From: an uncultured SAR116 cluster alpha proteobacterium
Lineage (GTDB): Bacteria > Pseudomonadota > Alphaproteobacteria > Puniceispirillales > Puniceispirillaceae
DNA: 64,000 nt
Assembly (NCBI GenBank): GCA_902547925.1
Contig: CACCQD010000004.1
Span: 1 to 64,000 of the forward strand
Direction of reading: 5' to 3'
Shown here: positions 8,700 to 52,240 of the stretch, piece by piece
How positions within the stretch are numbered: position 1 is the first letter of the stretch
Layout: every line of letters starts with the position of its first letter
Program-made: the position numbers and the translations under genes
Notes under the pieces: model-generated
The model's input: only the letters and a program-made list of their open reading frames with translations
Told to the model about the DNA's origin: nothing
The model's database searches: none

Positions 8700-10982
8700 G
8701 TGATGCGGTTTGCAGCGGTGTTTTTTATCGTAGTGATGATGGGGGCCAGCCTTTTGTCATCATCGCCGGTTACAGCACAGTCCACGACAAACAATCAACG
8801 TATTGAAGCTATTGAAATGAATGGAAATAAGCGGGTTGCCGCTGGCACTGTCCTGTCCTATCTGCCGCTTCGTGTCGGCGATCTGGTGACAGCAGGTTCG
8901 ATGAACACGGCGGTTGCGCGGCTGTTTGATACCGACCTGTTTGAGGATATCAGCCTGGAGATGGTTGACGGTGTTCTAAGGGTCACGATTACCGAGAACC
9001 CGATTGTCAACCGCGTCAACATCGAGGGCAATGATGCCATTACGGATGAAAAGCTATTAGAGTTCCTCGATATCCAGCCACGCCGGGTCTATACGCGCAA
9101 AATGGCAATCGAGGGTGCGCAGCGGTTGCTGCGGGTCTATCAGGCTGGTGGTCGCTATGCGGCGGTGGTCGAACCACAAATCATCAAACTTGATGAAAAC
9201 CGGATTGATCTGGTATTCAAAGTCGATGAGGGACCGTTGATCAAAATCAGCTCGATCACCTTTTCCGGCAACCAGCTTTTCAGCGACTCAAAATTGAAAA
9301 CGGTGATTGCCAGCCGCGAAAAACGCTGGTGGGCTATCCTGTCGGCAACCGACAAATATGATGAGGGCCGGCTTGAATATGATGCCAGGCTGCTGCGCCA
9401 GTTCTATCTGGCGCGCGGCTATGCCGATATCAATGTGACGCGGGTGCGGGGCGGCCTGTTGCCGGATCGGACAGGCTTTGCTGTGACATTTCTGCTGGAA
9501 GAGGGGCTGCGTTACAAGGTTGGCGATATCGAGATTACCAGCGAGATTGAAAACATTGATCTGGAGCTGATGAAGGCACAGTTCGATTTCGGCGATGATG
9601 GCTGGTATGACGTTCGCGCACTTGAACAGGGGCTTCTGGATATCACCAACGAGCTTGGCAATTATGGCTATGCCTTTGTCGATGTCCTGCCTGAAATTGT
9701 CACCGATGCCGAGACCGGACTAGCAAAAATTCTGTTGAAGATTGGCGAAGCGCGAAAGAACTATGTCGAGCGCATCGAGATCATCAACAACACACGGACA
9801 ACCGACACAGTGATCCGGCGTGAGCTGGACCTTGTCGAGGGCGATGGCTTCAACTCATTGACGCTGGAACGCTCGCTGCGCAATGTCCGCAATCTCGGCT
9901 ATTTTGCGGATGTTTCAGTGCGTAATATTGTTGGCAGCAGCCCCGAACAGACAGTCATCGAGATTGATGTTGAGGAACAATCGACAGGCGAACTGGCCCT
10001 CGGGCTTGGCTATTCATCGCTGGATAAGGCAAGTTTCAATATTGGCATTGTTGAGCGGAACTTCCTTGGCACGGGACGCGGACTTGAAGCGTTGATTGGC
10101 ACGTCCGGTAGCCGCACCGATATCCGCCTTGGCATTACCGAGCCTTATCTGCTTGGCCGCAATCTGCGCGGCTCCGCAACTGTGTTCAACCAACAGATTA
10201 ATCAGAACAGCACAGATATCGAGAAAACCGGTTTTGATTTCGGTATTCGCTTTACCGCGGCGAACAACATCTATCACCGGGTTGGCTATACGCTGTCGCA
10301 GTCGCAAACCACACAGAAATCAACGACCGCACAGTCAGTGACCGGAGAGAATGGCAAAACCTTGTTGCAGTCGGCGGTGAGTTATAGCGTTGGCAGGGAC
10401 ACACGCGACAGCCGGTTTGACCCGTCAACCGGCACTTTGTTGGAATTGTTTGAGGAGGTGTCAGGAATTGGTGGTGATGTGACCTATAGCAAAACCATCG
10501 TCAAGGGCGCGTTCTACAGGCCATATCTGTTCAATACACTTGTCTTTGGTTTGCAGGGCGAGCTTGGGCACGTCAACGGCCTTGGTGAAAATGTCACACA
10601 GTCACAGCGGTTCTTCCTTGGTGGCTACAAGGTGCGTGGCTTTGATGGCAACGGTATCGGCCCACGTGACATTGGCAACAATGCCGCAGTTGGCGGCAAC
10701 AATGTCGCCTCTGGCACACTGGAACTCGTGTCAACATTGGGTCTGAGCAAGGATCTTGGTTTGCGTTGGACCGTGTTCAGTGACATTGGGTCGGTGTGGG
10801 GAAATGATTACCCGACAAGCGTTAAGGGTGCGGAGAACAGCGCCCTGCGAACATCGCTTGGTTTCGGAATATTGTGGGATACCGCGATCGGGCCGCTGTC
10901 TTTCTATTGGGCGGACGCAATCTCGAAAGAGTCCTATGATGGGCTGAAGCGCTTTCAGTTCGCCATCGGCACACGGTTGTAA
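8700..10982 (+). CDS. bamA: outer membrane protein assembly factor BamA
   Basis: Signal peptide, POTRA-like repeats and C-terminal Omp85 barrel (FFLGGYKVRGFDGNGIGPRD). Confidence 0.96.
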   Translation: MMRFAAVFFIVVMMGASLLSSSPVTAQSTTNNQRIEAIEMNGNKRVAAGTVLSYLPLRVGDLVTAGSMNTAVARLFDTDLFEDISLEMVDGVLRVTITENPIVNRVNIEGNDAITDEKLLEFLDIQPRRVYTRKMAIEGAQRLLRVYQAGGRYAAVVEPQIIKLDENRIDLVFKVDEGPLIKISSITFSGNQLFSDSKLKTVIASREKRWWAILSATDKYDEGRLEYDARLLRQFYLARGYADINVTRVRGGLLPDRTGFAVTFLLEEGLRYKVGDIEITSEIENIDLELMKAQFDFGDDGWYDVRALEQGLLDITNELGNYGYAFVDVLPEIVTDAETGLAKILLKIGEARKNYVERIEIINNTRTTDTVIRRELDLVEGDGFNSLTLERSLRNVRNLGYFADVSVRNIVGSSPEQTVIEIDVEEQSTGELALGLGYSSLDKASFNIGIVERNFLGTGRGLEALIGTSGSRTDIRLGITEPYLLGRNLRGSATVFNQQINQNSTDIEKTGFDFGIRFTAANNIYHRVGYTLSQSQTTQKSTTAQSVTGENGKTLLQSAVSYSVGRDTRDSRFDPSTGTLLELFEEVSGIGGDVTYSKTIVKGAFYRPYLFNTLVFGLQGELGHVNGLGENVTQSQRFFLGGYKVRGFDGNGIGPRDIGNNAAVGGNNVASGTLELVSTLGLSKDLGLRWTVFSDIGSVWGNDYPTSVKGAENSALRTSLGFGILWDTAIGPLSFYWADAISKESYDGLKRFQFAIGTRL

Positions 10983-41015: not shown

Positions 41016-41091
<76 letters not shown>

Positions 41092-41121
41092 GCCTACAAC
41101 CCAAGCACAGCCTCAAAAACA

Positions 41122-41160
41122 CGCCCTCGGCCCTCACGGACCGGGGCTGTTTTTTTGTTT
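41122..41160 (+). terminator. terminator downstream of tRNA-Glu (left-end module of island)
   Basis: GCCCTCGGCCCTCACGGACCGGGGCTG followed by TTTTTTT. Confidence 0.65.
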
Positions 41161-41342
41161 ATGTTATAGTTTTTCTTTTTTTAATGGTGTGTATGTTGAT
41201 TTATAGAAAATTATACTTTGAAACACCTAATTAGAATACTGAATGTAAATAAAATTCTTGAACTATTTTCTGCTACTGTGGTCACAGAAACCTTCGACGA
41301 AACTCTATTTTGTCACCACGTTGGAGGGGAAGACATTTTGGG

Positions 41343-42191
41343 TTACTTAGTTGCTTTGACGTAGTGAAGTGCCGCGTTATATTTGATTTCGTGATTAACT
41401 CGTCTTTTTTTGCATAATTCTAACACTTTACTCTTTATAGCCGACATCTCTTTATCACTTAAGTTTGATCCGGAGTATAGTTTCGCTCTAGGACCGATAC
41501 TTAAAAGTATTTCAACGTCTTTTTCAGGGGTGTCCCGGGTAGAAATAGAAGACGAGACTGTGTCGATTTTGATTTCCCGAAATCCAGATAAATCCAAAAT
41601 TTCCCAAATATATTTTTTGTCACTAAAAGCAAATGCACCTGGCTCCCTTGTTGTTGGAGGCAAATTTTTATTCGTGTAACTTGTCACAATCTCAGAGCCC
41701 TCAATAAAAAACTCATTGCAATTCATATCTGCCCAACAAACAAAGTTCAGTGATCCTCCTGTTTTCATTGATAAATGTATATTCTTAAAAGCTTCTATCG
41801 GGTTCTCAAAAAACATCATGCCAAATCTAGAGATCACTTTGTCAAAACTTCCTACTTTGAATTTGTAGTTTTGTGCATCGCAGGTGTTGAATTCTAAATT
41901 TTCAATGTTTGAAAATTTATTTCTCGCAAAAGTTAATAATGTTTCCGATATGTCTGCGCCTTGAACATAACCGCTGCTTCCAACATACTGCGAAGCTCTA
42001 AAAGATGTTTCGCCGCCACCACATCCCACATCCAAAACGCAATCGTTTTGAACAATTTTTGACCTAAAAAAAAGTTCATCAGTTAAAACAGAGAAACGCT
42101 CATTCATTGCGTCATCAATTTTAACCCACTTGGGACCAGATTTCTCATTCCAGTACTCTGACTGTTCTATATTTTTTATTGTTTTTGACAT
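41343..42191 (-). CDS. class I SAM-dependent methyltransferase (island segment 1 cargo)
   Basis: NDCVLDVGCGGGETSFRAS...GADISETLLTFAR...FDKVISRFGMMFFENPIEAFKNI. Confidence 0.85.
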   Translation of the reverse strand: MSKTIKNIEQSEYWNEKSGPKWVKIDDAMNERFSVLTDELFFRSKIVQNDCVLDVGCGGGETSFRASQYVGSSGYVQGADISETLLTFARNKFSNIENLEFNTCDAQNYKFKVGSFDKVISRFGMMFFENPIEAFKNIHLSMKTGGSLNFVCWADMNCNEFFIEGSEIVTSYTNKNLPPTTREPGAFAFSDKKYIWEILDLSGFREIKIDTVSSSISTRDTPEKDVEILLSIGPRAKLYSGSNLSDKEMSAIKSKVLELCKKRRVNHEIKYNAALHYVKATK

Positions 42192-42445
42192 AGGGTGAAG
42201 AATATTCCGCTGACACTTTTTTAGTAAGTTCCAAATATAAAATTATTTCCTCGGAGGGCGCCACAACATTAATGAAGGCGGTTTGCTGCAAAAAATGCAC
42301 GTGAAGTGATTTTTAAACCCGATTTTTAAACGATTTGTTTAGTGAGTTTAATTAATATTCTAAGGCGAATTTTAATGGATTAATGTTGCTTAAGTTTACG
42401 TGGCCCTCCACAGGGGGCTCCAACTTGTTATAGTTTGTTATAGGT

Positions 42446-42527
42446 TTCTAGCTTCCAACGCCCACCAACAGTAACAAAAACACCCCGTAAACGCTGAGTT
42501 TTTACCTCCAGAAACCGCCAAATATCC
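42446..42527. repeat. right-end module copy RE1 (divergent)
   Basis: AGGTTTCTAGCTTCCAACG...TTTTTACCTCCAGAAACCGCCAAATATC, shared with RE2/RE4. Confidence 0.7.
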
Positions 42528-42573
42528 CTCTTTCACGGCGCCAATAGGGGTTAGAATCCCCTACGTGATGCTA
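42528..42573 (+). repeat. degenerate att copy R1 of tRNA-Glu 3' end
   Basis: CTCTTTCACGGCGCCAATAGGGGTTAGAATCCCCTACGTGATGCTA; downstream left-end module also retained (GCCTACAA...CCCTCACGGACCGGAGGTTTTTTTT). Confidence 0.85.
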
Positions 42574-42831
42574 GCCTACAAAGCAGGCACAGTCTTAAAA
42601 ACAAGCCCTCCACCCTCACGGACCGGAGGTTTTTTTTATTTTCTGAACTTTGCCCCGCTTCCAATTGGCCAAACAAACTTGATTAATAACAGTTTTTAGT
42701 ATTCCGTTATTGCATGCAGGAAGAGCCTCTTAAGCACTTGGTTTAAAAGTTGTTGTGCTAATTTTTGAATATCAAATTTGGGTTTACTTTTCCTAACGGC
42801 TAAGCGCTAACAAAACTAGGCAGAACATTAA

Positions 42832-44703
42832 GTGAAGCTACAAAACTCGACCGAAACATTGCACGTCTTATCTACAGCAGCAGGGATAATTTTATTCTGC
42901 TATATGGCTTTTGCGACTGTTTTTGGTCCTTATAAAACTACGTTTGTCCATCTGGCTTTGTTCGCATTACTTTCTTTCATTATCCTGTTTTTGGATAGTA
43001 TGGCTTTGCGCCAAAATAGCAGGAAAAAGGTCTCTTATGACCTTGTCCTTTTATTAGCTTCGGCAATTCCTTTGATCTACTTCATATTAGATTTTGAAAG
43101 GTTGATTAATCTATGGGGCTCAACATACCTATCATACTTAGATTTGTTTTTAGGGAGTGTTTTTGTGCTCGTCTGTATTGAGGCCTCAAGGCGTCAATCA
43201 TATATGCTCGGCGGTTTAGCTGTTTTGGCTTGCCTTTACATGCTCTTTGGCAATTTTTTGCCGGGTGTTTTTAGTCATGCCGGCATGGATTTTGGCCGTT
43301 TCATTTACACAGTTGTTTACACTAGTGAGGGTCTTTTTGGCACTGGCCTTAAAGTGGCAGCAACATACCTATTCATGTTCATGGTTCTTGGGAGTGTCCT
43401 CAGGGTAAGTAAAACAGGCGATTTCATGATTGATTTAGCTAATAGCGTTTTGGGAGCACGGACTGGTGGCGCGGCCAAGGGAGCGATGGCAGCGAGTGCG
43501 GGCCTTGGAACCATAGTTGGAAGTTCGATTGGTAATGTGGTTGCGACCGGCACATTTACAATACCGCTTATGAAAAGCACGGGATTCCAACCCCACGTGG
43601 CAGCCGCAGTGGAAACGAATACCTCAGAGGGTGCCCAACTTGTACCACCAATATTAGGCGCATCCGCGTTTATCATGGCTCAGGTAACGGGTATTTCTTA
43701 TGAAATTATTGTGTTGGCAGCAATCATTCCAGCCGCGTTGTACTACATATCTCTTTATTCTGTTGTTCATATTGAAGCTCTGCGTCACGGGATAAAAGGG
43801 CTGCCAGAGGATAAAATTCCCTCTTTTAAGGAAAAATTTGCTGCCGGTTGGCATCTCCTGATCGCTCCGATTGCGCTTTTTTGCCTTTTGCTGATTGGGT
43901 CTTACACTGTGACCTTTGCGAGCTTAGCAGCTATTTTTATTGCCGTAGCCTGTGGATTGGCGAGAAAGAGCACCAAATTTGGTTTTAAAAAATTGATTAA
44001 ATTTGCCAGCGAAGGCCTGAGTCAGTCGGCCCAAATCACAGCATTAGTAATTTCAATTGGGCTGATTCAAGCCTCTATAGTCGCCACCGGACTTGGGCCA
44101 AGGTTGACAGACATAATTCTTGGATTAAGCGACGGTTCATTATTGATGACAGCGGGTCTGACGGTCGTTGCGGCTACAGTCCTTGGAATGGGGATGCCTA
44201 CTCCCATAACATATTTGCTTCTTGCAATGTTTGCCGCACCCGCTCTGGTTGAATGTGGAGCGAGTGTTTTAGCCGCCCATCTTTTCTTGTTCTATTTTGC
44301 GATCAAGTCAGGCTCTACACCTCCTGTTGCACTGGTTGCAGTCGTAGCTGCCAGCATTGCAGAGGCTCATTGGTTTCGCACAGCTATCACAGCGTTCACA
44401 CATTCATTGCCCGGCTTTGCAGTTGCTTTCATGTTTCTTTATGAACCGGGGCTTCTTTTTGAGGGCGATTACTCTGTCATATTTTTCGTGTTCGTGAAGG
44501 CCGTTATCGCAGTGATTGCGATAACCTATGCTATCCAAGGTTGGTGTGGTGGATGGGTTTCATGGTTTTCTCGAGCAGTGCTCGCTTCAGCGGGATTGGC
44601 TATTTTTAACGAAAATTTGTACGCAAACTCATTTGGTATAGCCGCCATCGTAAGTATTTTTTTATTCCAATATTTGCAAAACTCGGCAAACATTAAGCGT
44701 TAG
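42832..44703 (+). CDS. TRAP transporter permease, fused 4TM/12TM (DctQM) type
   Basis: Multi-TM 623 aa; ARTGGAAKGAMAASAGLGTIVGSSIGNVVATGTFTIPLM, GMGMPTPITYLLLAMFAAPAL; adjacent TAXI binding protein. Confidence 0.9.
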   Translation: MKLQNSTETLHVLSTAAGIILFCYMAFATVFGPYKTTFVHLALFALLSFIILFLDSMALRQNSRKKVSYDLVLLLASAIPLIYFILDFERLINLWGSTYLSYLDLFLGSVFVLVCIEASRRQSYMLGGLAVLACLYMLFGNFLPGVFSHAGMDFGRFIYTVVYTSEGLFGTGLKVAATYLFMFMVLGSVLRVSKTGDFMIDLANSVLGARTGGAAKGAMAASAGLGTIVGSSIGNVVATGTFTIPLMKSTGFQPHVAAAVETNTSEGAQLVPPILGASAFIMAQVTGISYEIIVLAAIIPAALYYISLYSVVHIEALRHGIKGLPEDKIPSFKEKFAAGWHLLIAPIALFCLLLIGSYTVTFASLAAIFIAVACGLARKSTKFGFKKLIKFASEGLSQSAQITALVISIGLIQASIVATGLGPRLTDIILGLSDGSLLMTAGLTVVAATVLGMGMPTPITYLLLAMFAAPALVECGASVLAAHLFLFYFAIKSGSTPPVALVAVVAASIAEAHWFRTAITAFTHSLPGFAVAFMFLYEPGLLFEGDYSVIFFVFVKAVIAVIAITYAIQGWCGGWVSWFSRAVLASAGLAIFNENLYANSFGIAAIVSIFLFQYLQNSANIKR

Positions 44704-44724
44704 GAACACAAAGTGGAGGAGATA

Positions 44725-45684
44725 ATGAGAAAGATAAATGCATTTATCACGGTGGCAGCTTTCCTGTTCGGAGCTAGTCATGCGCTTGCGGCAGACCAAG
44801 TGTCTATAGGAGCCAGTGGATCAGGCTCTGGTCCCTACTTAAATGCTGGTTTGATGGCAGAGGCAGCCAACAAGGCGCAAAAAGATTATAAATTTTCAGT
44901 TCAAACGACTGGTGGATATAAAGATAATCTTGGTTTGGTGCTCACAGATAAGGTTGATATTGCTCTTAACACGCTAATTGGCATTTATGATGCCTACAAT
45001 CAAAACGGTAGTTATGGCACTTCACCTATGAAGGATGATTTTAAGCGTTTGCGCTACCTCTTCACGTTTGGTGCAGTGCCTCAAAATATCTTTGTTCGCG
45101 CAGATAGCGGAATTGGCTCTTTACAGGAAATAAAGGGACAGTCTTTCAATATAAACAAGCCTTCAAGTTTTACTCACGGTATGAATTTGAAAATGCTTGA
45201 AGCGGCAAATATATCTACGGATTCTTTCAAAGTTGGCACCGTGAGCACGGGTCAAGTATTCGAACAAGTGCAAAACAAGGTTTTTGTCGGTGGAGCTCAC
45301 GTTTATCAGTTAGGGCTTGGAAATGCTCAAAAATTATCTAGTACGGTTGAGATAAAATATCTTGATGTTCCTCAAGATGTGATTGATCGAATGAATGTGG
45401 GTTACAATGGACTTTTGGTTCCATATGTGATTCCAGCCAATACCTACAAGGGGCAGAAAAACTCTGTGAATACCTTTGGGCTTGCTCAGGTAATGTTCAC
45501 CGATGACAGCGCTGATGAGGATCTAATTTACGAATTTACCAAGTCATTTTGGTCGAATATCGAAAATTTGCAGTCTAAGAATACCAGCTTTGCTGGTATG
45601 AGTGCTAAGCTTGGTGCCAAAAATTATGAAATTCCTATGCACCCAGGCGCATTACGATATTTCAAAGAAATTGGTGCCATGTAA
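44725..45684 (+). CDS. TAXI-family TRAP transporter solute-binding protein
   Basis: Signal peptide; VSIGASGSGSGPYLNAGLMAEAANKAQKDYKFSVQTTGGYKDNLGLVLTDKVDIALN. Confidence 0.88.
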   Translation: MRKINAFITVAAFLFGASHALAADQVSIGASGSGSGPYLNAGLMAEAANKAQKDYKFSVQTTGGYKDNLGLVLTDKVDIALNTLIGIYDAYNQNGSYGTSPMKDDFKRLRYLFTFGAVPQNIFVRADSGIGSLQEIKGQSFNINKPSSFTHGMNLKMLEAANISTDSFKVGTVSTGQVFEQVQNKVFVGGAHVYQLGLGNAQKLSSTVEIKYLDVPQDVIDRMNVGYNGLLVPYVIPANTYKGQKNSVNTFGLAQVMFTDDSADEDLIYEFTKSFWSNIENLQSKNTSFAGMSAKLGAKNYEIPMHPGALRYFKEIGAM

Positions 45685-45732
45685 AAACAGTAACGTTGTT
45701 CGGAGTTTTGTTACGTTTTCAGCGACAAAAAA

Positions 45733-45762
45733 GTGACCACAGGAAATGAAGTCTTCTGTGGT
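45733..45762 (+). terminator. candidate hairpin terminator after TAXI gene
   Basis: GACCACAG...CTGTGGTC inverted repeat, AT-rich downstream. Confidence 0.4.
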
Positions 45763-45814
45763 CAATAATATTAATAAAAATCAATAATTGACGTATTTGG
45801 CATGCTAAACAATG

Positions 45815-45945
45815 TGGCGACGTTTGCAAAAAAGCGCAAAGCAAGGGCCTGAATCTAGTCCAGTTTAGTCCAGGTTTCTGGATACCAACGACTGCCAAAA
45901 TGTCCCAGAACACGGTAGTTTTCACCTCCAGAAACCGCCAAATAT
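45815..45945. repeat. right-end module copy RE2
   Basis: GGCGACGTTTGCAAAAAAGCGCAAAGCAAGGGC...GGTTTCTGGATACCAACGACTGCCAAAATGTCCCAGAA...ACCTCCAGAAACCGCCAAATAT. Confidence 0.88.
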
Positions 45946-45996
<51 letters not shown>

Positions 45997-46237
45997 TTTA
46001 TCAATAAAAATAATAGGTTAAGGACAAGTGTCCACGTTTTGTCCACACTTAGGCGGGAACACCCAAAACCGCAAGTCGATTGGACAATCTTTGCGCCCGA
46101 TTCGGGGTCTGTTTTGCCCAACGCGAACGCAAGATTTCCTTGCTACGGACCAACGAAATAGATGAATTAAAATGCGCTGAGTCAGTTCTTGTAGCCCATC
46201 GCTTCCCAACTCTCATCAGCATTGCTACACTTCAGCC

Positions 46238-48175
46238 ATGTACAGTGCCGCACTAGCATCACTGGTTGGACTGATGCTGTCGATTACTCTGCAATCGGCA
46301 AACGCATTAAATCTGAGTTGTAAGCGAACTTCAGGGATGCATGACGGCTTTTCAACTAGAAGTGTTTTTGAGTCCTGGTTTCCAAAACGGGTGAACCCGA
46401 CCGCAGACGAGCAAATTCCAACCAGCAAAGATACTCAAGTTAGTTTTCAGATTAATGGTGCAAAATATACTCTAACGCCATCCAAAGTGATGACTGGCTC
46501 CTTGCCAGAAAAAGCAGGTTACAAGTCAGTCACTGGCGTTAGGTACAAATGTAATGCCACGTCTAATGAGGTCAAGATTGCATTCGGCCAACCTGGTAAA
46601 AAGGCTAATACCAAGAGCTTGACCACCACTGCCTCCACAAGCGCAAAGACACCTCAATCGAAGAGTTTGGTGAGGTGGCAGAGAAAAACGGATAGCTATG
46701 TGTGCAAATTTGCTCCGAAGTTTAATAATGCTTTGAGAGAAGCCAAACGTCGTGGCCTGAACTGTGCTGTTGACGAGAGTGGCTCAACCCAAGCAACGGT
46801 CGCCGGCTTGACACTTACCCAGGTGCCTGTTTCTCAACACAGTAATCCTTCGATATGTAATTTTGCTACCTATCGTGCCGGCTTAAAAACAGTATGGACA
46901 ACATCCAAAGACAAGCAAGTATATGTCCAAGAGGCAAAACGACGTTCCCTGAAGTGTGGTGTTGACAGCAGTGGCTCAACCCAAGTTGCCACGGCCACCT
47001 CCAAACCAGCTATATCCTCCGCCGAACTTGACGCCGAACGTCGAAAGCGGCTCCAAGCTGAAGCTGAGTTAGCCGCCCTAAAAGCCCAAAAGCAGGAGCA
47101 GCAAAAAACAATCTCCAGCGACACTAAAGCTCCACTGCTAACAATTGACAGTGCTGTCACGGAGGGTAAGCAAGGCATCATTCTGGGCAGGGCCACAGAC
47201 AATATTGGAATTGCAGAAGTAACCATCGATGGACAGCTGGTTGCGTTCGATGTCTCAGGCAACTTCCAATTCAACACCTTCGTTCCTGCAACAGGTAAAG
47301 AAGTGTTGGTTGAAATTAGCGACTTGGCTGGCTTATCCAATTCAAAGGTAGTTTCTCTGTCTCGTTCTGATGGAGTGCAACCTGCAACCTTGTCATTTGC
47401 CAGCTTGAATCCAATGGGACGTAAAGTGGCTAGCAACGATACCGCAGTGGCTTTGATTGTTGGTGTTGATGCGTACGAAAACACTCCGGCCAGAGCCATT
47501 TATGCGGATAGTGATGCTAGGGTATTTGCTGATTACGCATCAGAGAAACTGGGCGTCCCTGAAAATCGCATTAACATTCTGGTAAATGATGGTGCTGGCG
47601 AGAGGGAAATGCTTTTGTCGGTGAAATCGTGGTTATCCCGTGCCGTCAAACAGAACCAGTCCGACGTCTACGTGTTCTTCGCCGGTCACGGTCTGGCCAG
47701 TGATGATGGTGAACAGATGTACCTGCTACCCTATGACGGTGCCCCTGAGTTGTTAGATGATACCGCAATTGCCAGGGAACGCCTTTTCACTGACATCGCT
47801 TCCGCCAACCCCCGTAGTGTAACGGTATTCCTCGACACCTGCTATTCCGGCATAACCAGAGGCACTGATATGCTAATAGCTAGTCGTCCTATCGCTATCA
47901 AAGCACTCAAGCAATCAGTACCTGACAATTTCACAGTTATGACAGCAGCAGCTGGTGACCAGACAGCTAAACCACTGGAAGAAGCCAAGCATGGAATGTT
48001 CAGCTATTTCCTGATGAAGGGGATGGAAGGGGAAGCAGACGCTAATCAGGACAGCAAGATTACCGCTGGTGAATTGCACAGTTATGTTCAGACAAACGTA
48101 ATCCAGCAGTCCAGTGGCAACCAGACTCCGGAGTTACAAGGTGATGCCAATAGAGTGCTGGTGAGGTTCCAGTAA
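46238..48175 (+). CDS. exported caspase-like (peptidase C14/metacaspase) protein
   Basis: Signal-peptide-like N-terminus; VALIVGVDAYEN, VFFAGHG (His), VFLDTCYSG (Cys); two N-terminal EAKRR-L-C-VD-SGSTQ repeats. Confidence 0.87.
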   Translation: MYSAALASLVGLMLSITLQSANALNLSCKRTSGMHDGFSTRSVFESWFPKRVNPTADEQIPTSKDTQVSFQINGAKYTLTPSKVMTGSLPEKAGYKSVTGVRYKCNATSNEVKIAFGQPGKKANTKSLTTTASTSAKTPQSKSLVRWQRKTDSYVCKFAPKFNNALREAKRRGLNCAVDESGSTQATVAGLTLTQVPVSQHSNPSICNFATYRAGLKTVWTTSKDKQVYVQEAKRRSLKCGVDSSGSTQVATATSKPAISSAELDAERRKRLQAEAELAALKAQKQEQQKTISSDTKAPLLTIDSAVTEGKQGIILGRATDNIGIAEVTIDGQLVAFDVSGNFQFNTFVPATGKEVLVEISDLAGLSNSKVVSLSRSDGVQPATLSFASLNPMGRKVASNDTAVALIVGVDAYENTPARAIYADSDARVFADYASEKLGVPENRINILVNDGAGEREMLLSVKSWLSRAVKQNQSDVYVFFAGHGLASDDGEQMYLLPYDGAPELLDDTAIARERLFTDIASANPRSVTVFLDTCYSGITRGTDMLIASRPIAIKALKQSVPDNFTVMTAAAGDQTAKPLEEAKHGMFSYFLMKGMEGEADANQDSKITAGELHSYVQTNVIQQSSGNQTPELQGDANRVLVRFQ

Positions 48176-48234
48176 GCCCGACGGATGTCAAAAAGAAAAA
48201 CGTGATTGATTAAGCGCGTACAGTTCGGGTCGTT

Positions 48235-48266
48235 CTGAGACAGACTGAGACAAACTGAGACAAAAA
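48235..48266 (+). repeat. short tandem repeat near the end of island segment 3
   Basis: GAGACAGACTGAGACAAACTGAGACA. Confidence 0.75.
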
Positions 48267-48313
48267 AGTAGACATCTTCATAATAAACTATTGATTTAAA
48301 TATATAATATGGT

Positions 48314-48413
48314 CCTACGGGATGCCAGTCTACAACATAAAGCTAGCCTCAGAAACAAGCCTTCGGCCTTCACGGACTTGGGGCTGTTTTTTTGTGTATG
48401 TTATAGCTTTCTT
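48314..48413 (+). repeat. partial att copy R3 plus left-end module
   Basis: CCTACGGGATGCCAGTCTACAAC...CCTTCACGGACTTGGGGCTGTTTTTTTGTGTATGTTATAG, homologous to 41078-41171. Confidence 0.85.
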
Positions 48414-48695
48414 ATGGTTTTTCAGATGTTACGTTTCAAATTACTTTAGTCGTTTGTTTTAGTAAGGCGAGTTTACAATGTAGTTTTTGTTGAAAACTAT
48501 CGGTTTAGACAAATTCCCAGAAATGCTCGTTTTTGCAACTCTGTTTGGTATTTTTGTTTGAAGCGGTGGCTCTAACATCTACGCATTTTTCAGACAGCAT
48601 TGCGTCGTTCAGGCTCTAAAACGCTCTCTACTCATGTCGCATGTACTCTTAATTCGAATGAGATCATCCTCTGATAAAAATAATTAACACATTTT

Positions 48696-48738
48696 TATAT
48701 TGCAAATGATAATTAGTATCATTATCATTTGCAATATA
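48696..48738. promoter_or_regulatory. Fur-box-like operator within a perfect 18-bp inverted repeat
   Basis: TATATTGCAAATGATAAT-TAGTATC-ATTATCATTTGCAATATA; centre GATAATTAGTATCATTATC matches GATAATGATAATCATTATC at 16 of 19. Confidence 0.7.
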
Positions 48739-48983
48739 GGTTTTAGTTAAGTTGTGAAACCAAACACTCTTGGACCGCCCTTGGGTATTTTAGCTTTCGT
48801 AACTCTTTGAAAGTTAGATTTTTGAATCGTGCCAATGGGTGGTGTTGGGCGGGGTCAGTATTTGCGTTCCCTTGTTAGCTGACCCCGTTCAAAAATAGCA
48901 GTTTTATTAAAGAAGAAGGAAAATCTTAAATTTTATTTTTTGGTGCTGAGACGGTTGCATCACCAAAATTCGACCAGATCAAT

Positions 48984-49211
48984 TTGGGGGAGCTTATGTA
49001 TATTGAGATGAGTCGTTCTGAAGTTGTTAAAGGCGAAGAGCGGCAATTTGAACAGTCATCTATAGAGAGACATTACAAATTAAAAGATATCCCAGGATAT
49101 CTTAGTGCTCACTTTGTTCGCGGTGGGACCAATGGCGTTGTCACTTTTTACTCGTTGCACACGAGATGGACCAGCAAAGACGAATTTTTAAACTGGTGCA
49201 CAGGCGAATGA
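48984..49211 (+). CDS. small ABM-type protein, possible heme-degrading monooxygenase
   Basis: MYIEMSRSEVVKGEERQFEQSSIERHYKLKDIPGYLSAHFVRGGTNG...HTRWTSKDEFLNW. Confidence 0.5.
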   Translation: MGELMYIEMSRSEVVKGEERQFEQSSIERHYKLKDIPGYLSAHFVRGGTNGVVTFYSLHTRWTSKDEFLNWCTGE

Positions 49212-49453
49212 TTTTAATACCTTGATGTACTAAGTCGTGAGAAATTCACATAGGTTCAACCATGCTGATTTAGTGCCGACAAATTCACCCAGCAAATCTC
49301 GCGAAAGCTTGGTTTAAAGCATCCATAATTAGTAATTAGTGACAAAAAGAGGAATTAAACCTTCAGATGGTAATCATTCCACGAGTTGGGCAAAGGCAAA
49401 CAGGACCTTAAATTTTTTAGGCCGGGGATTTGTTATGTGGTTTGTATTGAAAG

Positions 49454-49511
49454 TCAGTTGGAAAGCTGACGCGCCTACGGAGAAATGGGCGTGACAAAGT
49501 CACCCATTTCT
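49454..49511 (+). other. paired hairpins upstream of DUF1289 gene (candidate structured leader)
   Basis: GTCAG-ttggaaag-CTGAC and AGAAATGGGcgTGAC-aaa-GTCACCCATTTCT. Confidence 0.45.
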
Positions 49512-49525
49512 AGAAACGTCAAAAA

Positions 49526-49849
49526 TTGGGAAAACTAGAATCTAAAATTTTGAGGACAACCACATTGTCGAAAATAATTAGTCCCTGTGTTGGGGTTTGC
49601 AAATACAAGCTAAAGGGACGCTGCTCCGGATGTGGGATGAAAAAAGCTCACAAAAGGGCTTTTAAAAAATTGGACTCAACAAAGAAGCGACAGGATTTCC
49701 TTGCAACGTTAATTTTATACCAAAAAGAGCTTCACCTTTACCAAGACTGGGTCCGCTTGTATCGCAAAAAATGCAGGAAGAAGGGAAAGGAATTCCCCCT
49801 TCAACTAGAAATCTCCGAGCAGCCCCAACTGCAAAAGCTGCGCGACTAA
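49526..49849 (+). CDS. DUF1289-type Cys-rich protein
   Basis: SPCVGVCKYKLKGRCSGCGMKKAHKRAFKKLD. Confidence 0.75.
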   Translation: MGKLESKILRTTTLSKIISPCVGVCKYKLKGRCSGCGMKKAHKRAFKKLDSTKKRQDFLATLILYQKELHLYQDWVRLYRKKCRKKGKEFPLQLEISEQPQLQKLRD

Positions 49850-50328
49850 GCTAAATGACTTTTAAGCATCCAAGCAAATTTTTCATGCTCGCGCGCTCTG
49901 CCGATACACAAGTCTTCGGTAAGTTTGTCATTTTTCTCGGAGGCAATGTCACACGCCCCGATCAGGGTTTCCGCTAATGTTTCCTGTGCTATTGCCATTG
50001 CCGCAATCATTTCGCGGTCAGTGGCCTCTCCTTCGTGCTCTTCCACCTTGGACCGCGCAACCATGCCAGATAAAGTGCCCTGAGCATGGCCGCCAATTGC
50101 CTTTATACGCTCCGCTAAATCATCCTGACCCTCGAAATGATCCTCGTAAATTCTTTGAAATAAATCGTGGAGGGGCCCGAAAGCCATACCAGTAACATTC
50201 CAATGGAAGTTCTGTGCAAGCATAGTAGTCACTGTCGTTTCCGCTACCGCTTGATTAAGCGCGTCAACGATTGCAAGTGACGCTTGCGGGATTTCATGGC
50301 CTTTTATCAGTTCCATAATTATCTCCAT
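49846..50328 (-). CDS. Dps-family ferritin-like protein
   Basis: AQNFHWNVTGMAFGPLHDLFQRIYEDHFEGQDDLAERIKAIGGHAQGTL. Confidence 0.9.
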   Translation of the reverse strand: MEIIMELIKGHEIPQASLAIVDALNQAVAETTVTTMLAQNFHWNVTGMAFGPLHDLFQRIYEDHFEGQDDLAERIKAIGGHAQGTLSGMVARSKVEEHEGEATDREMIAAMAIAQETLAETLIGACDIASEKNDKLTEDLCIGRAREHEKFAWMLKSHLA

Positions 50329-50407
50329 CGAATTGGGCTATACAGACTGACATATAGCTATTTGCCATTTAAATACAAGATTTTCTATTTGGCATTGAGA
50401 AAATTAA

Positions 50408-50830
50408 TTATCGTAATGACATGCATATTTTCTCAACAAGATAGAGAAAATGAGGGTGGACTCTCCGGCTGAGCCTCGACGATAACAAGAACTTTGTGCT
50501 TGCCTCGTCCGCTGAAATATAGCTCTCAAATATCCGGATGAGCCAAGCCTCATCAAAAGTCAGTTCATCGCACCCGGGGTCACTAAACTTTGCAGAGCAC
50601 CCCAACAAAGATGGTAACCCACGGATTAACGTTTCAATGTGCGCTGATAGTGCGGCCTCATCCTGCGACTTCAATAAGTCACACGCTCTTATTAAGTCTA
50701 TTTTGGGTTTTGCTCTGCTCAACTGGTATGTAACTCTAAAAAAATCCAGTAACCCCGAACTTTTTCCGGGCATTTGAGAAAAACTTGGTCCAGATAAATC
50801 ATATTTGAGTTTTGAGAGGTTAGCGGACAT
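50408..50830 (-). CDS. hypothetical protein
   Basis: 140-aa ORF without long overlapping alternatives, palindrome in its upstream region; family not recognised. Confidence 0.6.
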   Translation of the reverse strand: MSANLSKLKYDLSGPSFSQMPGKSSGLLDFFRVTYQLSRAKPKIDLIRACDLLKSQDEAALSAHIETLIRGLPSLLGCSAKFSDPGCDELTFDEAWLIRIFESYISADEASTKFLLSSRLSRRVHPHFLYLVEKICMSLR

Positions 50831-50849
50831 TGTGATTCACTTTTTGCGA

Positions 50850-50866
50850 ATGAGAACTGTTCTCAT
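50850..50866. promoter_or_regulatory. perfect palindrome (Fur-family-like architecture) between divergent genes
   Basis: ATGAGAAC-T-GTTCTCAT. Confidence 0.5.
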
Positions 50867-50924
50867 AAACTAACTAAAAATGGAGAACTTTCAAGTGTTC
50901 TTTTTATTTAAACACATAAAAATA

Positions 50925-51593
50925 ATGCAGACATATCGTGTGTTGCAAATATCTATAGTCATTGTTTGCGCGGTACTTTCGTCCAACTCTCAGGCCGGTG
51001 ATTATGAGCGTGGGTTTGAAGCCCTCGCATCAAAAGATTATCGAAAGGCTGCCTATTACTTGAGCCTATTTGCCAGTAACGGCGATGCGCGCGCGCAATA
51101 CAACATGGGTATAATGTATCGTGACGGACTTGGTGTTGTGCGTGATCCAAGAGTTGCTCTGTCTTGGCTTCTGTACGCCTCGGCGCAGGGTCACATGCTC
51201 GCTAACTATGCATCAGGCCTTTTAATGCGCGACGGGCCTGTAGATGTGCAAGATTCTGAGCGTGCGCTGCATTATCTTAGCGAGGCAGCATTTCTTGGGC
51301 ATGCGCTTGCACCACTTGAAATTGGCAATATGTATTTTGTAGGCAAGCATGTTTTCAAAGATCGCACGCTTGCATTTGTCTGGTGGAGTCTCAGCGCTGA
51401 TCGAAATGGGCCTGGTGCACAGGCCAACATTGAGAGCCTTACTGACAGTCTTACCACAGAGGAAGTGGCCAAAATCCACGGTATTCTTGCAAAATGTGAT
51501 ATATTGCCTCTACGAGAATGCTTGGCAGAATCTTTGCTGTATTTGGAGCCAGCAGAAGTGGAAAGTGGTGTCGTCTCGCAGCCAAAGCTCTAG
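50925..51593 (+). CDS. Sel1-like repeat protein, probably exported
   Basis: MQTYRVLQISIVIVCAVLSSNSQAGDYERGFEALASKDYRKAAYYLSLFASNGDARAQYNMGIMYRDGLGV; ORF opens at 50880. Confidence 0.8.
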   Translation: MQTYRVLQISIVIVCAVLSSNSQAGDYERGFEALASKDYRKAAYYLSLFASNGDARAQYNMGIMYRDGLGVVRDPRVALSWLLYASAQGHMLANYASGLLMRDGPVDVQDSERALHYLSEAAFLGHALAPLEIGNMYFVGKHVFKDRTLAFVWWSLSADRNGPGAQANIESLTDSLTTEEVAKIHGILAKCDILPLRECLAESLLYLEPAEVESGVVSQPKL

Positions 51594-51739
51594 GTACTGG
51601 TTTAAGTTTCTAAGATGCGCCAGTTTTTGCGAAGAAGTTGAACAGTAGGGCGGGTGTTATGGGTGTGTTGTGACTACCTCCAACCACCATCGGCTATCAT
51701 GGAGATTCGGAATTTAGTATTATTCGCCCCAAACGCCGC

Positions 51740-51960
51740 CTACTCGCAATCTTGACAAAGGTCCCCAGTAGAGAACAAATCACTGAAAGCGCTCATGAGA
51801 ACAGCGCAAAGGTCACGCTTACATCATTGAAATAGGCGATAATTTGTTCCTGAATTTGATTGTTTGTCAAAACCACGCGGAGGAAAGTGGGGGCTACAAA
51901 AAGTGTGGCGGCACATCCCCAGAGCGTGGTAAGCGTGACGGCCCTAAGTGCGTGCCAGCC
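51740..51960 (-). pseudogene. dctM (TRAP large permease) fragment
   Basis: HALRAVTLTTLWGCATLFVAPTFLRVVLTNNQIQEQIIAYFNDVSVTFALFS*ALSVICSLLGTFVKIAS, one frame, aligns with LALRETATITAIIFAIIATATFLSVVLTYSQIPQQIVSYFTDMGATFALFWVALAIICLLLGTFVEIV of the intact dctM at 52675-53946. Confidence 0.85.
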
Positions 51961-52053
51961 ACGAGTGCGGGGCGTATGAGCAAGTCACAAGCGCGTTTAG
52001 ATGTGTCTCGCAAGCGGTCTAAAAGCAGGACGTGGGTGGCAAGCCAACTGATT

Positions 52054-52193
52054 TGGCGACCTTTGCAAAAAAGCGCTAGGCAAGGGCATAAATCTGTCCC
52101 AGTTTATCCTAGGTTTCTGGCTCCCAACGACTGCCAACAACTGCCAAAATATCCCAGAATTTAGTACTTTTTACCCCCAGAAACCGCTAATTA
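52054..52193. repeat. right-end module copy RE4
   Basis: TGGCGACCTTTGCAAAAAAGCGCTAGGCAAGGGC...GGTTTCTGGCTCCCAACGACTGCCAACAACTGCCAAAATATCCCAGAAT...CCCAGAAACCGC, parallel to RE2. Confidence 0.88.
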
Positions 52194-52240
52194 TGCCCTT
52201 TCACGGTGGCAACAGGGGTTCGAATCCCCTATGGGATGCC
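52194..52240 (+). repeat. att copy R4 (island right boundary)
   Basis: TGCCCTTTCACGGTGGCAACAGGGGTTCGAATCCCCTATGGGATGCC; a few substitutions versus the tRNA 3' end. Confidence 0.93.

Follow-up and report, generated by a model that had tools for sequence, protein, structure and literature searches.

Putative attachment arm of integrase-less cassettes arrayed behind tRNA-Glu in an uncultured SAR116 cluster bacterium

Introduction

Tandem islands behind a single RNA gene, with members that lack an integrase, have been described in Dehalococcoides, where the ssrA islands are discussed as cis-mobilizable elements (CIMEs) and are proposed to move by a neighbour's enzyme (PMC3146451). Additive flexible genomic islands are represented, in the portions of the published accounts available here, by the tRNA-Lys arrays of Methylopumilus with their 20-nt repeat (PMC10872708) and by islands of Alteromonas (PMC5217437); the same portions present tycheposons and VEIMEs as marine integrative elements and satellites (PMC11389934, PMC10872708). 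Here we describe a tandem cassette array at 41092–52240 of a 64,000-nt stretch of DNA (the window) from an uncultured SAR116 cluster alphaproteobacterium, together with the conserved module that closes its cassettes. Relatives used for comparison are denoted by genome (G) and locus (L) numbers.

Results

Layout of the array

The array lies behind an intact tRNA-Glu(TTC) gene, the integration target (41016–41091; ARAGORN). The 3′ half of this gene (41044–41090) is the core repeated across the array, with 41044–41089 matching the core at 100%, and its 47-nt copies divide the array into four segments whose cargo is unrelated according to Pfam. Four att-like copies were found behind tRNA-Glu, three at 42526–42572, 45946–45992 and 52194–52240 and one as a 3′-only remnant at about 48313–48326; GC content falls from about 0.62 to 0.35–0.51 from tRNA-Glu through 52240. 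Each copy of the right-end module ends in a 47-nt tRNA-Glu 3′-half copy, closing one cassette. The cassette features listed in the next two paragraphs, as well as the tRNA, lie on the + strand, except the methyltransferase gene of cassette 1 (− strand) and the cargo of cassette 4, to which no strand is assigned.

Cassette 1 opens at 41092–41169 with AGCCTACAACCCAAGCACAGC, a terminator (GCCCTCGGCC..GGGGCTGTTTTTTT) and the word GTTATAG (41163–41169). Its cargo is a SAM-dependent methyltransferase (41343–42191; Pfam Methyltransf_25, 1e-16) with a 91% identical homologue within the array of G001, and it closes with module copy 1 (42415–42524; CM E = 9e-22, pattern match), in which the word of the left end, GTTATAG, is doubled (42427–42433 and 42437–42443), and with att copy 1, a degenerate tRNA-Glu 3′ half (42526–42572; 40/47 identical). 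Cassette 2 carries a TRAP DctM-type permease (42832–44703) and a TAXI/NMT1-type receptor (44713–45684; Pfam DctM and NMT1_3), which together span 42832–45684. At its right end follow the decayed 3′ end of a phage-type small gene (45815–45854; frame NNVATFAKKRKARA*), module copy 2 (45845–45944; CM E = 3e-22, alignment), with a doubled AGTCCAG (45857–45863 and 45867–45873) and without one 10-bp unit, and att copy 2 (45946–45992), which is identical to the tRNA-Glu 3′ half (47/47).

Cassette 3 begins with a doubled word, GTCCAC, of period 11 (46030–46046), encodes a caspase-domain (Peptidase_C14) protein (46238–48175; Pfam PF00656, 3e-15), and has a different type of right end, in which CTGAGACA is read three times at period 10 (48235–48262); att remnant 3 comprises the last ~13 nt of the tRNA (48313–48326). 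Cassette 4 starts with a terminator and a GTTATAG word (48326–48406, word at 48400–48406) and carries DUF1289, ferritin-like/Dps, a 140-aa protein and Sel1 repeats (49526–51593; Pfam). Its right end consists of a frameshifted, decayed phage-type small gene (51886–52089; profile matches at 51886–52029, E = 2e-5, and 52020–52088, E = 7.5e-6), module copy 3 (52084–52193; CM E = 3e-25), in which the pair GTCCCAG/ATCCTAG precedes the 10-bp-phased CCAACGACTG/CCAACAACTG/CCAAAATATC, and att copy 4 (52194–52240; 44/47), the distal end of the array. No integrase was found among the ORFs of the array; the integrases of this assembly, which is only 58% complete, sit on contigs other than the array's.

Some further observations concern the cargo. 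A homologue of the caspase-domain protein, which is the sole cargo of cassette 3, lies just before a tRNA-Glu 3′ copy in G071, a member of another family (L102, contig 66; 37% identical), where TTGTCTC, the reverse-complement form of the thrice-read CTGAGACA of the window, is doubled. Upstream of the Dps/Sel1 cargo, a perfect 18-bp inverted repeat, TATATTGCAAATGATAAT-N7-ATTATCATTTGCAATATA (48687–48738), is similar to a Fur-type (iron-regulator) box. A gene for a PurF-like amidotransferase/phosphoribosyltransferase, which is ordinarily a core gene, is found inside a tRNA-Glu cassette in G048 (L051, 2130–3608) and G054 (L048).

Anatomy of the right-end module and of the left end

Motifs shared by 45815–45945 and 52054–52193 had been noted in a preliminary description and were borne out by a whole-assembly search: 45815–45991 and 52054–52239 are 81% identical (E = 1.5e-45; ungapped part 121 nt, 78% identity), the motifs of that description, AACGACTGCCA/AACAACTGCCA and AGTCCAGTTTAGTCCAGG among them, are present, and 45815–45945 differs from 52054–52193 by a clean 10-bp deletion corresponding to one repeat unit. 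The copy taken for a shorter version, at 42446–42527, is in fact complete, because a module profile matches it over its full length (42415–42524; model positions 1–110 of 111, E = 9e-22); here a doubled GTTATAG replaces the GTCCAG-type word. Three full-length copies were recovered from the window with this profile (42415–42524, 45845–45944 and 52084–52193; E = 9e-22 to 3e-25), which was built without tRNA sequence and included the window copies in its training set.

The module comprises, in order, about 45 bp of decayed gene 3′ end, a 10-bp-phased doubled word, conserved 10-bp-phased repeats and the core. The doubled word is formed by two copies of a ~7-nt word at a spacing of 10–11 bp and varies between elements (GTCCAG, GTTATAG, GGTCACG, GGATAC), and units such as CCAACGACTG-CCAACAACTG-CCAAAATATC continue at 10-bp phase up to the core. 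Self-match at lag 10 reaches 0.57 for the 52084 copy; across 13 copies it is 0.42, versus 0.26 for shuffled sequences (z = 13.8, which is indicative only because the copies are related). Short repeated sites phased at ~10 bp outside the core, one of the traits of a tyrosine-integrase attP arm, are thus present, and between species and genera the module is 72–83% alike. Arm-type recombinase sites, as originally suggested, are probably the best explanation of these repeats, given the lag-10 self-match, the enriched doubled words, the matching ends and the integrase islands of like layout. This holds for the remainder of the module; its 5′ part (TGGCGACNTTTGCAAAAAAGCGC..GGCAAGGGC, ~45 bp) is a decayed phage-type gene 3′ end, not a site.

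The module does end otherwise unrelated att-bounded segments, as had been proposed, but it is not the one terminus they share: the opposite, left terminus is conserved too. A terminator-bearing segment is common to 41092–41163, 42573–42645 and 48326–48406 (repeat families D2, D4 and D10), always in the order AGCCTACAACCCAAGCACAGC, terminator, arm word, and similar left ends occur in G054, G057, G056 and others.

Occurrence in relatives and a second tRNA target

Using the profile without tRNA sequence, we searched 136 genomes of the order and found 17 copies of the module (E < 1e-5); the 9 genomes that carry them belong to one family, whereas a sample of 387 genomes across the class yielded none outside the order beyond the window itself. 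Nearly all 17 copies directly precede a tRNA 3′-half copy, nearly always that of tRNA-Glu. To the question raised earlier, whether the module always abuts tRNA-Glu in related genomes, the answer is that it does not: one good copy abuts tRNA-Asp instead. On contig 8 of G048 (L107, ~9950–10210), the module is located between an intact tRNA-Asp and a tRNA-Asp 3′-half copy, and hence the arm is not tied to tRNA-Glu. This cargo-less element of ~190 bp contains a terminator, a GTTATAG pair, the module and the tRNA-Asp core. Such a make-up is as expected if the two arm repeats recombined and the cargo was lost; it is, to judge from its sequence, an element reduced to its two ends, apparently fused at the GTTATAG repeat.

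Insertion point and cassette order

Empty sites in relatives define the insertion point. The DNA past the distal att of G059 aligns from the first base with the DNA directly after tRNA-Glu in G007 (801 bp, 76%), and that of G042 and G046 aligns likewise with G034 (83–84%). These alignments extend over ~800 bp and start at base 1–3, indicating that these arrays were inserted precisely where the tRNA ends on its 3′ side. Congeners differ in cassette order, with MT-TAXI-caspase-Dps-TRAP in the window versus TRAP-MT-TAXI-Dps in G001. For the TRAP cassette, whose DctM protein is 91–93% identical, we considered recent horizontal transfer and rejected it, as the DNA is only ~74% identical between genera.

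Matching words at both ends

The words at the left and right ends of one element frequently agree: GTTATAG/GTTATAG in cassette 1 of the window, GGTCACG/GGTCACG and TTGGATAC/TTGGATAC in G057, TTGGCGAC..TTGGCAAC/TTGGCAAC in G001, and AGTCCAG/AGTCCAG in G054. The observed left/right similarity was reached by 29 of 20000 random re-pairings for broad zones; for arm zones, which were fixed after examples had been seen and come from elements that are not fully independent, it was reached by 0 of 100000 (45 of 100000 once both integrase islands are excluded). Doubled 7-mers of period 9–12 occur in 42% of right zones and 25% of left zones, compared with 3.9% of background windows, a ten-fold enrichment at right ends, and in 61 genomes hardly any GTTATAG or GTCCAG pairs lie outside the cassette sites. 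About half of the elements have no matching words, including 42573–45945 and 48326–52193 of the window (cassettes 2 and 4), so that part of the array has surely decayed or recombined. The same TAXI cargo ends in GTCCAG in the window and in GTTATAG in G001 and G002; ends have therefore been exchanged or converted.

At one att copy of G001 (L046, 9162, reverse-complemented locus), GTCCAG-type words are alike on both sides, as in an unintegrated attP, and the outer words around that copy are GTTATAG; the arrangement looks nested or recombined.

Integrase-bearing islands at the same tRNA

Islands at tRNA-Glu in G017 and G019 carry GGTACC pairs and TAGGTAAAA pairs, respectively, at both ends, and a gene for an Arm-DNA-bind_3 + Phage_integrase protein beside the right end. 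They share the layout of the cassettes, with matching ends, and show where such matching ends come from. The DUF1800/DUF1501 cargo of the G017 island has look-alikes in an integrase-less cassette of G054, as judged from sequence starts and lengths. An integrase-bearing element with this exact module was sought and none was found. A resident helper integrase with the same words was also considered and set aside, there being no further GTTATAG or GTCCAG pairs in the 58% complete assembly.

Behind the integrase island of G019 (L071, ~9700), a 13-nt att remnant is followed by a further left end with doubled GTTACC, and in G029 the same left end immediately adjoins the tRNA.

A phage-gene remnant before the arm

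The remnant frame, shifted in the window, still reads ..RMTKAQRASAVRRKRSKPQGVGGKPTNVATFAKKRQARA*, or nearly so, in G001, G002 and G048; these relatives with an intact frame match phrog_23735 (G048 copy, E = 9e-6). Its peptide aligns with HTVC027P gp50, a small protein encoded in a structural region of a marine phage and weakly similar to DUF5872, and the family occurs in marine phage structural operons (HTVC027P gp50, phage 023Pt_psg01). The G054 remnant belongs to a second phage family, phrog_16028 (E = 2e-10), which is found in CRP-5 and HTVC168P. A decayed C-terminal piece of a phage small gene is the only candidate trace of packaging or capsid genes in the cassettes. Since such a remnant adjoins the arm, it suggests that the cassette ends may descend from a phage or phage satellite.

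Discussion

We propose, with a probability of roughly 0.7, that the module is the attP-type right arm of small, non-autonomous, trans-mobilised integrative cassettes whose docking site is the tRNA-Glu 3′ end or, in one case, that of tRNA-Asp; the words matched between the ends would be bound by an integrase supplied in trans, and recombination would take place at the core. This proposal joins the anatomy and recurrence of the module, the matching ends, the empty sites, the reordered cassettes and an array with no detectable integrase.

Each cassette reads, from left to right, its own tRNA terminator with an arm word, 1–6 kb of cargo, the right arm (the doubled arm word, then the conserved 10-bp-phased repeats) and the tRNA 3′-half copy. 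We infer that an element already resident or newly arriving would provide, in trans, a tyrosine integrase of the Arm-DNA-bind type. This enzyme would bind the words that the two ends have in common and carry out recombination within the anticodon-loop core of the tRNA, so that cassettes could enter beside the tRNA, be excised or change order. An accessory factor, either an excisionase or an additional integrase subunit, may bind the conserved phased repeats that lie between arm and core. The element's own 3′ half would rebuild the tRNA for the next cassette, and its own terminator would end the transcript. Current mobility is presumed for the system as a whole; the array itself may be largely immobile today, as many copies are decayed. 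In a wider and more speculative form, which we hold only tentatively, the SAR116 family would possess a system of cassettes whose cargo units, themselves without an integrase, all have the same conserved arm, while an exchangeable, end-matched word serves as an address code. A given unit would then be recognised solely by integrases with the corresponding arm specificity, acting at a single shared tRNA core, and the arm could also be joined to another core, as at tRNA-Asp.

The strongest competing account, which we consider a serious though minority possibility, is that the segments are decayed integrase-bearing phages or islands at tRNA-Glu that have lost their integrase; the modules would then be fossil attR sites that serve no function today. 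Such decay would fit the phage-gene remnants seen at cassette ends, the degenerate att copies, the integrase-bearing islands at the same site and the mismatched words of about half of the elements. Against it stand the conservation of the module between species and genera, the letter-perfect core at 45946–45992 and the intact cargo genes, and one end type is common to many cargos with no integrase remnant in any of them. The cargo common to the G017 integrase island and the integrase-less G054 cassette likewise argues against it.

It is possible, but somewhat doubtful, that the cassettes are phage satellites of the VEIME/tycheposon kind, or remnants of these, with the conserved end combining the arm with a role in packaging or one related to the capsid. 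The gene fragment before the arm does come from a small-protein family of marine phage structural operons (in G054, from a second family, phrog_16028), and the sizes, mostly 1.5–6 kb and ~12 kb for the integrase-bearing form, are consistent with satellites. Against this, no other phage or satellite genes were seen in the cassettes, the phage-type gene had no intact host copy in 61 genomes, every host copy found being decayed, and the module gave no match in 50,697 phage records.

Spread of the shared ends by homologous recombination between array repeats, rather than by an integrase, appears improbable. It would account for the differing end words of orthologous TAXI cassettes and for the G001 words that resemble a fused attP around one att copy; against it stand empty-site junctions placed exactly at the tRNA 3′ end, the swapped core with the same module at tRNA-Asp and arm words that match across elements. 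That the module is a regulatory or RNA element, such as a promoter or structured RNA, standing before att by chance is very improbable. The inverted pair GGTTTCTGG/CCAGAAACC of the window copies would speak for it; this pair is lost in the g4 copies, 13 module copies yield neither a consensus fold nor a covarying pair, and the module keeps its place relative to the att core rather than to genes.

In the open ocean, bacteria acquire and shed genes for transport and catabolism through tRNA-linked arrays, and a shared docking end helps to explain how nutrient-uptake genes could be swapped without an integrase in each cassette. The docking end is directly readable: units are found with the profile, their arm specificity can be told from the ends, and the point of insertion is confirmed by empty sites. 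Trans-mobilisation therefore becomes testable, either in sequencing reads or by means of a P4-type integrase in a laboratory strain.

Comparison with known systems

Like the Dehalococcoides ssrA islands and CIMEs, the cassettes are each bounded by an RNA-gene 3′-end copy, and many of those islands also have no integrase of their own (PMC3146451). Two CIME traits were found here: attL/attR-type sites bound the cassettes (42526, 45946 and 52194, and the junctions of relatives), and no integrase was found among the array ORFs. For a third, sites that still work and are mobilised in trans, the matching end words give indirect support. The Dehalococcoides islands, however, involve a serine recombinase and an 84-bp conserved region at the direct repeat (PMC3146451), whereas the cassettes have a ~110-bp arm with exchangeable doubled words and a tyrosine-integrase precedent, with no integrase gene found in the array. 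With additive islands, as far as the available portions of those accounts go, the cassettes share a variable number of units and variable cargo between tRNA 3′-end repeats in aquatic bacteria; the same portions describe only a short tRNA repeat, with neither a conserved attachment arm nor a left terminator module (PMC10872708, PMC5217437).

P4-type islands, with their Arm-DNA-bind_3 integrase at tRNA 3′ ends, have the same target and, as G017 and G019 illustrate, a doubled arm word at each end; the cassettes differ from them in having no integrase and in an arm-to-core segment that forms a separate conserved family. Tycheposons and VEIMEs are the nearest marine relatives, being cargo-bearing elements at tRNA genes of open-ocean bacteria with a possible phage-satellite link. 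The cassettes share the tycheposons' integration at the tRNA 3′ end, as seen from empty sites in relatives, but tycheposons carry a tyrosine recombinase, which the window cassettes do not and which is present only in the G017 and G019 islands, and the cassettes have no intact packaging gene. Relative to the literature compared, in the portions available, the new features are a docking arm that can be read directly and whose word is exchangeable and matched between ends, a left end that bears a terminator, and a core swapped for that of tRNA-Asp; the cassettes are best read as a variant of the CIME, additive-island or tycheposon-like kind.
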